The notes under the pieces are model-generated. The model was not told the origin of the DNA, did no database searches, and was given only the letters and a program-made list of their open reading frames with translations. This document shows positions 53,086-62,945 of a DNA stretch of 64,000 nt, piece by piece. This DNA comes from Procambarus clarkii (taxonomy: Eukaryota > Arthropoda > Malacostraca > Decapoda > Cambaridae), in the NCBI RefSeq assembly GCF_040958095.1, contig NC_091152.1:21980906-22044905 (forward strand), in the 5' to 3' direction. Each line of letters starts with the position of its first letter. The first letter of the stretch is position 1. Made by a program: the position numbers and the translations under genes.

Positions 53086-53434
53086 GTCGTACCTAGTAGC
53101 CAGAACGCACTTCTCGGCCTACTATGCAAGGCCCGATTGGCCTAATAAGCCAAGTTTTCATGAATTAATATATTTTCTCTAATTTTTTTTCTAATGAAAT
53201 GATAAAGCTACCCATTTCATTATGTATGAGGTCAATTTTTTTTTATTGGAGTTAAAATTAACGTAGATATATGACCGAACCTAACCAACCCTACCTAACC
53301 TAACCTAACGTACCTTTATAGGTTAGGTTGGGTTAGGTAGTCGAAAAATAATTAATTCATGAAAACTTGGCTTATTAGGCAAATCGGGCCTTGCATAGTA
53401 GGCTGAGAATGGCGTTCTGGCTACTAGGTACGAC
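53086..53434 (+). mobile_element. Telomere-motif MITE, copy A
   Basis: Ends are inverted repeats starting GTCGTACCTAGTAGCCAGAA and running about 80 bp to the AAGCCAAGTTTTCATGAATT region. The interior has CCTAACCTAACCTAAC and its inverse around a TTTATAGG centre, plus an asymmetric ATGAAATGATAAAGCTACCC segment that sets orientation. At 349 bp it is somewhat shorter than the 380-390 bp copies. Flanked by (TA)n. Confidence 0.9.
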
Positions 53435-53552
53435 ATACATATATATATATATATATATATATATATATATATATATATATATATATATATATATATATAT
53501 ATATATATATATATATATATATATATATATATATATATATATATATATATAT
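53435..53552. repeat. (TA)n spacer between MITE copies A and B
   Basis: Pure (TA)n apart from one C near 53438. Confidence 0.95.
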
Positions 53553-53932
53553 GTCGTACCTAGTAGCCAGAACGCACTTCTCGGCCTACTATGCAAGGCC
53601 CGATTTGCCTAATAAGCCAAGTTTTCCTGAATTCATACATTTTCTCCAGTTTTTTTCTTATGAAATGATAAAGCTACCCATTTCATTATGTATGAGGTCA
53701 ATTTTTTTTTATTGGAGTTAAAATTAACGTAGATATATGACCGAACCTAACCAACCCTACCTAACCTAACCTAACCTATCTTTATAGGTTAGGTTCGGTT
53801 AGGTAGCCGAAAAAGGTAGGTTAGGTTAGGTTAGGTAGTCGAAAAAACATTAATTCATGAAAACTTGGCTTATTAAGCAAATCAGGCCTTGCATAGTAGG
53901 CTGAGAAGTGCGTTCTGGCTACTAGGTACGAC
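53553..53932 (+). mobile_element. Telomere-motif MITE, copy B
   Basis: 380 bp, same orientation as copy A, full terminal inverted repeats. Interior has two blocks of TTAGG-type repeats separated by TAGCCGAAAAAGG. Followed by (TA)n 53933-54018. Confidence 0.92.
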
Positions 53933-54018
53933 ATATATATATATATATATATATATATATATATATATATATATATATATATATATATATATATATATAT
54001 ATATATATATATATATAT

Positions 54019-54407
54019 GTCGTACCTAGTAGCCAGAACGCACTTCTCAGCCTACTATGCAAGGCCCGATTTGCCTAATAAGTCAAGTTTTCATGAATTA
54101 ATTGTTTTTCGACTACCTAACCTACCTAACCTAACCTAACCTAACTTTTTCGGCTACCTACCCTAACCTAACTTATAGAGATAGGTTAGGTTAGGTTAGG
54201 TAGGGTTGGTTAGGTTCGGTCATATATCTAAGTTAATTTTTACTCCAATAAAAAAAAATTGACCTCATACATAATGAAATGGGTAGCTTTATCATTTCAT
54301 AAGAAAAAAATTAGAGAAAATATATTAATTCAGGAAAACTTGGCTTATTAGGCAAATCGGGCCTTGCATAGTAGGCTGAGAAGTGCGTTCTGGCTACTAG
54401 GTACGAC
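54019..54407 (-). mobile_element. Telomere-motif MITE, copy C
   Basis: 389 bp in the opposite orientation to A and B: the GGGTAGCTTTATCATTTCAT segment now lies in the right half. Full inverted repeats and CCTAA/TTAGG interior. Followed by (TA)n 54408-54535. Confidence 0.92.
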
Positions 54408-54535
54408 ATATATATATATATATATATATATATATATATATATATATATATATATATATATACATATATATATATATATATATATATATATATATATATA
54501 TATATATATATATATATATATATATATATATATAT

Positions 54536-54924
54536 GTCGTACCTAGTAGCCAGAACGCACTTCTCAGCCTACTATGCAAGGCCAAATTTGCCTAATAAGC
54601 CAAGTTTTCCTGAATTAATATATTTTCTATAATTTTTTTCTTATGAAATGATAAAGCTACCCATTTCATTATGTATGAGGTCAATGTTTTTTTATTGGAG
54701 TTAAAATTAACGTAGATATATGACCGAACCTAACCAACCCTACCTAACCTAACCTAACCTATCTTTATAGGTTAGGTTAGGTTAGGTAGTAGAGAAAGTT
54801 AGGTTAGGTTAGGTTAGGTAGGTTAGGTAGTCGAAAAACAATTAATTCATGAAAACTTGGCTTATTAGGCAAATCGGGCCTTGCATAGTAGGCTGAGAAG
54901 TGAGTTCTGGCTACTAGGTACGAC
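54536..54924 (+). mobile_element. Telomere-motif MITE, copy D
   Basis: 389 bp, orientation as A and B. Interior ends with GTTAGGTTAGGTTAGGTTAG and GTAGGTTAGG. Followed by (TA)n 54925-55002. Confidence 0.92.
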
Positions 54925-55002
54925 ATATATATATATATATATATATATATATATATATATATATATATATATATATATATATATATATATATATATATAT
55001 AT

Positions 55003-55391
55003 GTCGTACCTAGTAGCCAGAACTCACTTCTGAGCCTACTATGCAAGGCCCGATTTGCCTAATAAGCCAAGTATTCATGAATTAATTGCTTTTCGACTAC
55101 CTAACCTACCTAACCTAACCTAACCTAACTTTTTTGGCTACCTAACCTAACCTAACCTATAAAGATAGGTTAGGTTAGGTTAGGTAGGGTTGGTTAGGTT
55201 CGGTCACAAATCTACGTTAATTTTAACTCCAATAAAAAACAATTGACCTCTTACATAATGAATTGGGTTGCTTTATCATTTCATAAAAACAAAATTAGAG
55301 AAAATATATTATTTCATGAAAACTTGGCTTATTAGGCAAATCGGGCCTTGCATTGTAGGCTGAAAAGTGAGTTCTGGCTACTAGGAACGAC
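55003..55391 (-). mobile_element. Telomere-motif MITE, copy E
   Basis: 389 bp, orientation as C. Slightly more diverged ends (right end GGAACGAC in place of GGTACGAC). Followed by (TA)n 55392-55574 with several C/G interruptions. Confidence 0.92.
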
Positions 55392-60953: not shown

Positions 60954-61504
60954 TGTGGGAACCGACCTGTGACATTTATATTTATTTAATTTATATGAAT
61001 TTATATGGAATTTATATTTACGTTAATTTATATATTTCGATTGCAATTGGTATGATGTTAAGTGGATTGTATTTCTGCAATAATCTCACAAATCGATCCT
61101 TACACATTAGGGGGGTTTATATTAAATTTATATATATGCAGCCAACCAAACTACAGTATTAAACTACATATATTAGTATATAAATTGAGGAGGTGCCTTA
61201 TCTTATTGTACAGCAGGCTTAGTCCACCAGGTATAACTAGGATGTAGACACCAAATTATCCTCGTGTGAGGCTAGCTTCCATCACCCAGTAACTGATGTA
61301 TCAAGTCTTGCTTCCTCTTCTTGTTCCTGTCAAAGGGCACTAGCTGTAAAGCCGGAATCCTAATATATGACAGCTATAACAGAGAAAACACTGTATATTA
61401 TATAAGATAAGGAGCAAGGCTTAATTACCTGTGTTGAGTCGATCATTCGTGTTCTAACCAGAAATAATCCTATCTAACATAACATTACTGGCCAATAATG
61501 ACTT
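60954..61504. other. Unassigned AT-rich sequence
   Basis: Begins TGTGGGAACCGACC exactly where PLE copy 3 is cut, which could be the end of an inserted element, but no matching CA-ending terminus was identified. No coding region. Confidence 0.4.
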
Positions 61505-61880
61505 AGATAAGACAGGGGCACCTTATCCACTCGACCATCACGACTGGACAAAAGCTGATGGTAGCCAAGGCTATTTGCCCCTCAGCCCGCCGGCACTCTG
61601 ATGGTAATCTTGGGCATAGTATTTTATCAAATCACCTCATTCTTTGGGGCACACGTGAGAAACACAAATGCGAACAAGCCTGAATGGTCCCCAGGCATAC
61701 ATGCAACTGAAAACTCACACCCCCAGAAGTGACTCGAACCCATACTGCCAGGAGCACTATGCAACTGATATACAGGGCACCATATCCACTCGACCATCAC
61801 GACCGGACAAAACGACATCACGACCGGATAAAACGACATTTGTCCGGTCGTGATGGTCGTGTGGAAAAGGTGCCCTGTAC
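61505..61880. mobile_element. Cluster of SINE copies related to 55575-55717
   Basis: On the minus strand a SINE head at 61812-61730 (GTCCGGTCGTGATGGTCGAG, B-box region GGGTTCGAGTCACTTCTGGG) with body to about 61560. A second minus head fragment lies at 61505-61556. A short head piece at 61815-61835 is followed by a plus-strand head fragment at 61841-61880 (TTGTCCGGTCGTGATGGTCG). The two heads at 61800 and 61841 face each other. Confidence 0.75.
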
Positions 61881-61904
61881 AAAATAAATAAAAAAAAAAT
61901 AAAA

Positions 61905-62047
61905 TCATACATAATGAAATGGGTAGCTTTATCATTTCATAAGAAAAAAATTATAGAAAATATATTAATTCAGGAAAACTTGGCTTATTAGGCAAATCGG
62001 GCCTTGCATAGTAGGCCAAAAAGTGCGTTCTGGCTACTAGGTACGAC
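61905..62047 (-). mobile_element. Telomere-motif MITE, partial copy F
   Basis: Right half only (CATACATAATGAAATGGGTA to the terminal CTACTAGGTACGAC), orientation as C and E. Lost left half and telomere-like core. Followed by a short (TA)n 62048-62077. Confidence 0.88.
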
Positions 62048-62077
62048 ATATATATATATATATATATATATATATAT

Positions 62078-62467
62078 GTCGTACCTAGTAGCCAGAACTC
62101 ACTTCTCAGCCTACTATTCAAGGCCCGATTTGCCTAATAAGCCAAGTTTTCCTGAATTAATATATTTACTATAATATTTTTCTTATGAAATGATAAAGCA
62201 ACCCTTTTCTCTATGTATGAGGTCAATTTTTTTTTATTGGAGTTAAAATTAACGTAGATATATGACCGAACCTAACCAACCCTACCTAACCTAACCTAAC
62301 CTATATTTATAGGTAAGGTTAGGTTAGGTAGCCAAAAAAAGCTAGGTTAGGTTAGGTTAGGTAGGTTAGGTAGACGAAAAAACATTAATTCATGAAAACT
62401 TGGCTTATTAGGCAAATCGGGCCTTGAATAGTAGGCTGAGAAGTGCGTTCTGGCTATTAGGTACGAC
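62078..62467 (+). mobile_element. Telomere-motif MITE, copy G
   Basis: 390 bp, orientation as A, B and D, full terminal inverted repeats and CCTAA/TTAGG core. Followed by (TA)n 62468-62557. Confidence 0.92.
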
Positions 62468-62557
62468 ATATATATATATATATATATATATATATATATA
62501 TATATATATATATATATATATATATATATATATATATATATATATATATATATATAT

Positions 62558-62945
62558 GTCGTACCTAGTAGCCAGAATGCACTTCTCTGCCTACTATGCA
62601 AGGCCCGATTTGCCTAATAAGCCACGTTTTCATGAATTAATTGTTTTTCGACTACATAACCAACCTTACCTAACCTAACCTAACTTTTTCGGCTACCTAA
62701 CCTAACCTAACATATAAAGATAGGTTAGGTTAGGTTAGGTAGGGTTGGTTAGGTTCGGTCATATATCTAAGTTAATTTTAACTCCAATAAAATAAAATTG
62801 ACCTCATACATAATGAAATGGGTGGCTTTATCATTTCATGAGAAAAAAATAGAGAAAATATATTAATTCAGGAAAACTTGACTTATTAGGCAAATCGGGC
62901 CTTGCATAGTAGGCTGAGAAGTGCGTTCTGGCTACTAGGTACGAC
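62558..62945 (-). mobile_element. Telomere-motif MITE, copy H
   Basis: 388 bp, orientation as C and E, full terminal inverted repeats. Followed by (TA)n 62946-63048. Confidence 0.92.

Follow-up and report, generated by a model that had tools for sequence, protein, structure and literature searches.

The window analyzed here is a stretch of 64,000 nucleotides from the genome of the crayfish Procambarus clarkii (contig NC_091152.1, positions 21,980,906 to 22,044,905; G000:C3:21980906-22044905 within a 4.03-Gb genome of 2308 contigs). Its region 53086-62945 holds seven full copies (349–390 bp) and one half copy of a miniature inverted-repeat transposable element (MITE), which carries telomere-type CCTAA and TTAGG repeats in its core and lies between runs of TA, or (TA)n tracts. 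Repeat content, including TTAGG-type arrays and Penelope-like elements, fits a decapod crustacean.

Organization of the copies in the window

Copies A (53086..53434; plus strand; 349 bp, with a shortened TTAGG core) and B (53553..53932; plus; 380 bp) are followed by C (54019..54407; minus; 389 bp), D (54536..54924; plus; 389 bp), and E (55003..55391; minus; 389 bp), whose outer end is GGAACGAC. Further along are half copy F (~61887/61897..62047; minus), which spans consensus positions 1–161 and has an inner edge ambiguous by ~10 bp, and copies G (62078..62467; plus; 390 bp) and H (62558..62945; minus; 388 bp). A (TA)n tract precedes copy A (52884..53085) and others separate A from B (53435..53552), B from C (53933..54018), C from D (54408..54535), D from E (54925..55002), F from G (62048..62077), and G from H (62468..62557). 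Two more extend from E to a repeat resembling a short interspersed element (SINE; 55392..55575) and from H up to the 3' end of a Penelope-like element (62946..63049). Tracts between copies are 30–128 bp in length, with at most a few C/G interruptions. The junction ATAT/GTCG (the slash marks the boundary) is present at 15 of 15 copy ends, and copies are 88.7–96.4% identical in pairwise comparisons. The original prediction, made from the letters of the window, had described eight copies (one of them half) with inverted ends of roughly 80 bp, CCTAA/TTAGG cores in all full copies, and (TA)n-only spacing, all of which we recovered; the series of orientations, + + - + - for A–E and - + - for F–H, was the same on re-reading the window.

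In a consensus of the eight copies, the inverted ends (~83 bp) pair at 74/74 and 82/83 positions, the latter establishing the presence of long inverted ends, a feature of the Mutator superfamily. When folded as DNA, the ends pair together and the telomere-type arrays pair separately as an inner hairpin. The MITE, at ~389 bp, is too short for a transposase gene. A motif like CCTANTANGCCAA occurs three times in the inverted end, at positions 7, 33, and 56 with 3, 3, and 0 mismatches in the consensus. The end word of the family is GTCGTACC and the junction of the element is fixed as TA/TGTCG...CGACA/TA. Searches against Rfam yielded no match at gathering score; most of the 113 sub-gathering matches are to hairpin microRNA models that fall on the inverted ends and TA.

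Long TA runs as the probable insertion site

The search of the genome with the element end that the original prediction had called for was run, and 206,642 matches (102,998 + 103,644) to a 30-base end were found, allowing up to three mismatches. The reversed control had none, which excludes chance occurrence. With two ends per copy, the family is estimated at about 100,000 copies, corresponding to ~40 Mb or ~1% of the genome, an estimate that cut copies and mutated ends will shift. One copy was present in 20 random 3-kb stretches (60 kb). Individual copies were read in twenty 10-kb stretches of contig 1 (0.9–5.1 Mb). This 200-kb sample favors intact ends and covers a single region because its stretches were picked by listed end word. 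Together, the sample and the window have 62 matches of at least 60 bp, and once eight partial ones were set aside, 54 full copies with 108 ends remained.

The ends lie almost exclusively at TA runs. Genome-wide, perfect (AT)5 directly precedes 134,180 of 152,364 exact 20-base ends (88.1%), and a lone TA (TAT outside a run) precedes 290 (0.19%). All 108 ends of the 54 full copies fit (AT)5 with no more than one mismatch, and 107 of them read AT/GTCG, with the other reading TT/GTCG. Every full copy has flanking (TA)n on both sides, a trait of the mode of insertion of Micron, MuTAnT, and SaTar elements. The share of TA steps located in TA runs of at least 12 is 29.9% in the 200-kb sample and 9.9% in the random 60 kb. 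No copy is nested within the 55 full bodies (the 54 and the random one), despite 2,646 TA steps there. Given the end counts, the shares of TA steps, and the lack of nesting at these steps, the insertion site of the MITE is long TA runs and not any TA. Arrays are modular and non-nested, as in (TA)n-targeting MITEs, with 23 adjacent pairs that have TA-only spacing. The view that this is a non-autonomous element with inverted ends sited in (TA)n is therefore borne out by the 88.1% of exact ends that follow (AT)5 and by all 108 sampled ends.

We suggest that the family is probably a non-autonomous DNA transposon, a MITE of ~389 bp, that targets (TA)n and forms modular, non-nested arrays like those of the (TA)n Mutator MITEs of plants. 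In this mechanism, a transposase supplied in trans by another element would bind the inverted ends, with the recurrent CCTANTANGCCAA-like motif as its candidate binding place, and would join the ends to long TA runs. Because an insertion leaves TA runs on both sides, the next copy could land alongside and modular arrays would grow. The CCTAA/TTAGG core, as an inner hairpin, would be a fixed passenger inherited from the founder and not repeatedly captured.

Alternatively, a Tc1/mariner-type or other TA-specific MITE could duplicate a 2-bp target on inserting at a single TA and turn up in TA runs because most of the acceptable sites are there. The junction TA/TGTCG...CGACA/TA, seen in 107 of 108 sampled ends, is what a 2-bp TA duplication would give. 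Nevertheless, this alternative is rather unlikely, as only the 290 exact ends noted above follow a lone TA though ~70–90% of TA steps are outside long runs, and the combination of ~83-bp inverted ends with a TA-run habit matches the plant Mutator kind. In addition, clean insertion in unique DNA was observed at none of 15 readable lone-TA loci. These come from 16 of the 290 places that were fetched; L055 had no match longer than 120 bp and the other 15 loci hold 16 copies. By eye, 13 of the 15 loci show a TA run no more than 30 bp away on one or both sides, in some cases with intervening end pieces. The copy in L059 is 75% identical and lies between (CA)n and (ATAC)n, and that in L063 is a MITE fragment. 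In a separate observation, TACCTAGTAG, a subterminal sequence of the MITE, is found just outside copies in L049, L057, and L058, inverted relative to the adjoining end, and is perhaps debris of other insertions or of fold-back synthesis.

Closed circles with TA filler could also recombine homologously into TA runs without ordinary joining by a transposase, as in the circular model for SaTar elements (PMC5907723). Such recombination would account for the near absence of copies outside TA runs and for non-nested stacking. It is, however, required by no observation, and the constant base at the junction fits defined cleavage; we consider circles a quite improbable route.

Empty sites and independence of copies

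Variation in a host repeat provides a view of sites with and without the MITE. Two modules of the repeat flank a (TA)n site. The repeat is arranged in tandem with a ~4.4-kb period in L021-L025; it is also present in L009-L013. Across 15 (TA)n intervals that were bounded and compared, six are essentially TA (97–184 TA bases; interrupted over 14 bp in L010), seven have a MITE or two (139–351 TA bases), one has a Penelope-like 3' end, and the other (L009) consists of 1147 bp of unlike DNA. Related empty sites consisting of TA, a trait of (TA)n-targeting MITEs, are thus represented by six of the 15. The host-repeat site shows that MITEs either entered a TA tract or were lost from it, and gain is favored over loss because host units differ in the number and orientation of their MITEs. 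The seven filled intervals do not correspond to seven independent events, since the first copies of both L025 units are identical and one L021 copy is close to one in L022.

The same intervals bear on whether insertion occurs at short TA stretches that afterward expand on both sides, as in the maize TAFT-type model (cited in PMC5907723). Consistent with expansion, filled intervals have more TA than empty ones, and filled sites of MuTAnT are likewise reported as longer than empty ones (PMC4486113). Yet the empty sites already have 97–184 TA bases, and expansion at separate sites is not expected to result in neighbors with TA-only spacing. Insertion at short stretches with later expansion is improbable as the explanation, but expansion may act in addition to targeting.

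Most copies appear to be independent insertions. The 23 adjacent, TA-separated pairs (+- in 10, -+ in 5, ++ in 5, and -- in 3) differ by 5.5% on average, compared with 5.9% for 1,343 between-locus pairs, and sampled copies have a median divergence of 3.0% from the consensus. Tandem duplication as the main cause was rejected because neighbors are as unlike each other as copies from different loci. The earlier statement that the clusters are not simple tandem duplications is therefore supported by divergence and by the paralogous empty sites.

Some results weigh against a (TA)n-targeting transposon or narrow its support. The remaining 11.7% of exact ends are left unclassified. Target duplications are unreadable in TA runs, both the 2-bp TA duplication of Tc1/mariner-type elements, with which the junctions are compatible, and the 8–11-bp duplication of Mutator-type elements, for which the 15 readable lone-TA loci have no clean copy; duplications of 2 bp and 9–10 bp are indistinguishable for this reason. 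Part of the empty host-repeat sites could be losses via recombination between TA runs. An autonomous partner with the same ends, which the original prediction proposed to look for, was not found in the four genome matches in which the inner-end word is followed by foreign sequence (L065-L068), with the qualification that the inner-end filter passes only ~18% of random continuations and longer relatives, perhaps a score or two, could escape. Three of the four are cut or invaded MITEs: L067 is a MITE holding an internal foreign stretch, and in L066 and L068 the 701 bp read pass from the MITE end to other repeats. L065 is ambiguous, as its MITE end is followed by ~575 bp matching none of five queries and a second end is not in view. 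Lastly, local copying also occurs. The adjacent pair in L028 is identical and inverted, and sampled copies in L011/L012, L020, and L025 duplicate one insertion, so that independent insertions number fewer than 54.

These last cases, together with near-identical copies in the tandem host units of L020, L022, and L025, are what would be expected if clusters were formed by local duplication and inversion instead of repeated insertion. As a general explanation, this has very little probability. Differences of 3.6–8.6%, like those of unrelated copies, were measured in 22 of 23 adjacent pairs, and shared changes in the window cross clusters (E with G, B with G, and C with H), though others link near neighbors (A with B and D with E).

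In the original prediction, copies outside (TA)n with longer target duplications were to count as refuting targeting. They would not do so, because plant (TA)n elements, which are Mutator-like, have duplications of 9–10 bp there (PMC4486113, PMC8449440).

Relation to known elements and the telomere-type core

Three plant systems are the closest parallels. Like the family in P. clarkii, the Mutator-like MuTAnT of Medicago truncatula is a short foldback element with long inverted ends that sits inside (TA)n and has TA runs as paralogous empty sites (PMC4486113). It differs in its plant host and its copy number of 218. Duplications of 9 nt and a relative with a transposase are reported for it, neither of which was found here, and a telomere-type core is not described in the portion available. 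The SaTar group in guayule and rice, to which rice Micron belongs (PMC5907723), has elements of ~400 bp and more that are flanked by (TA)n and form multimeric non-nested modular arrays. Their arrays in plants mix several families, whereas one family of ~100,000 copies dominates here, and in most guayule families some members lie outside microsatellites and show 10-bp duplications. The Ac-mMITEs of pineapple (PMC8449440) are similarly high-copy, reside in TA microsatellites, and form clusters whose spacers are almost pure TA, but that plant has, besides 15,361 microsatellite-flanked copies, 1,435 relatives with 9/10-bp duplications, a class not seen here. Penaeid shrimp are also crustaceans, and in their genomes long (AT)n accompanies recently active Penelope and other transposable elements, with (AACCT)n given as the main repeat of telomeres (PMC7878876); in contrast, transposable elements are treated there as carriers of repeats, and a (TA)n-targeting MITE is not described in the text available.

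The habit of stacking in TA runs is itself known from plants; new here is its animal, telomere-cored, high-copy form. The findings extend the habit of plant Mutator MITEs in TA microsatellites to an animal, at ~100,000 copies (~1% of 4 Gb). A limited look through the open-access literature on crustaceans, MITEs, TA microsatellites, and telomere repeats met no description of the element in titles or abstract openings, and six element-end words have no occurrence in searchable paper text. Four element patterns had no match in a collection of viral contigs and one had none in a collection of genome contigs.

Mutator-like elements (MULEs) have been reported in four decapod species (PMC13359780), and the Pfam MULE domain PF10551 has two matches in the P. 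clarkii genome. Membership of the MITE in the Mutator superfamily is a tentative assignment that we place a little short of even. Of the features that define Mutator, the long inverted ends were observed, and the MITE is described as working like a Mutator element without being filed as one.

The core is a constant of the full copies sampled. All 54 carry at least three CCTAA and at least three TTAGG units, the original prediction having named absence of the core from most copies as grounds for refuting the cargo idea; perfect TTAGG runs reach 20 bp in 35 copies and are shorter in the other 19. Formation of the interstitial array by break repair, set directly in host DNA, was rejected because all 54 copies hold their arrays between inverted ends. 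In the biased 200 kb, 55 of 55 (TTAGG)3+ and 49 of 49 (CCTAA)3+ arrays are inside the MITE and two 2-unit arrays are outside of it, and the three arrays of at least three units present in the random 60 kb are all within the single MITE copy there. Longer arrays have a different distribution. There are 54,512 overlapping matches to (TTAGG)8 genome-wide (25,632 + 28,880), and four of four fetched sites are outside the MITE: L073 and L076 are one other repeat and L074 is in other DNA. The fourth, L075 (G000 C1:28470063-28470323), has a long TTAGG array between direct repeats of ~20 bp, as if inserted with a target duplication. These core counts and sites imply that the MITE seeds many very short arrays but not the four longer ones read, and it was rejected as the source of long interstitial arrays, its own longest sampled run being 20 bp. 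Hence, the proposal that the element could explain interstitial telomere-like signals is supported in part: it may apply to the sampled arrays of at least three units and does not extend to the four longer arrays read. In crayfish, TTAGG signals at interstitial sites have been documented (PMC7859515), and shrimp have abundant AACCT repeats (PMC3124438). For a genome of this kind, short TTAGG arrays can be carried by a transposon and are best masked ahead of any identification of telomeres or fusion points.

A search with ATATATATGTCGTBCC had 808 matches versus 16 in the control, and four stretches were fetched. L069, L070, and L072 have a relative that is ~79–80% identical over 217–226 consensus positions with, by eye, a CCTAA-only core; common DNA beyond the right end indicates one insertion copied with a host repeat. 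L071 is a point variant of the telomere-cored family. On the basis of the ~80%-identical relative, known from copies that share flanks, the telomere-like core may be older than the family and its TTAGG half newer.

Other repeats in and around TA runs

The MITE shares the genome with Penelope-like elements that likewise end in TA runs. The label is based on the pairing of reverse transcriptase and GIY-YIG and on head-to-head inverted copies, an arrangement reported for Penelope (PMC3846280). Three frames (56272-57567, 57892-58989, and 59070-59480) have weak matches to reverse transcriptase and/or GIY-YIG (E 0.00045–0.0023), below curated cut-offs. In the window, (TA)6+ is within 40 bp of the 3' ends at 55876, 59711, 59981, and 63050 and not of that at 31233; a sixth, weak 3' match (52830-52881; 75% identity) adjoins the tract starting at 52884. 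Across L009-L048 and the window, (TA)6+ is within 40 bp of 15 of 17 Penelope-like 3' ends, suggesting that TA runs serve these retroelements too. A broader proposal is that TA runs are docking sites common to unrelated mobile elements, namely the MITE, Penelope-like 3' ends, and the SINE-like repeat, which would supply targets to each other in a self-extending modular landscape, and that the telomere hairpin of the MITE is kept for a function such as binding of telomere factors. We consider this combination unlikely.

Two Penelope-like copies are arranged head to head in 55871-59833, with both 3' ends outward. Their arms are 100% complementary in 56846-57743 / 58013-58910 and 99% complementary in 56188-56844 / 58908-59564, and positions 55876 and 59861 adjoin TA runs. 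The 3' ends in the window and L011-L038 mostly stop at either of two points 33 bp apart (query positions 118 and 148–151); an optional 31-bp tail is described for Penelope (PMC3846280). A hammerhead ribozyme suspected by eye in the 3' region was rejected, as there is none in the Rfam lists.

The SINE-like repeat (55573-55717) is in the tract after copy E. ARAGORN detected no transfer RNA, and the label rests on box-like words seen by eye. In L015, L017, L018, L022, and L026, SINE-like units have a ~260-bp period and are bounded by TA runs and MITE copies, and several of these arrays switch from minus to plus midway.

Elsewhere in the window are very large minisatellite arrays, located at 2370-18138, 18723-21363, 35131-38022, 38680-40113, and 44627-46631, the first of which has ~600 copies of a 26-bp unit.

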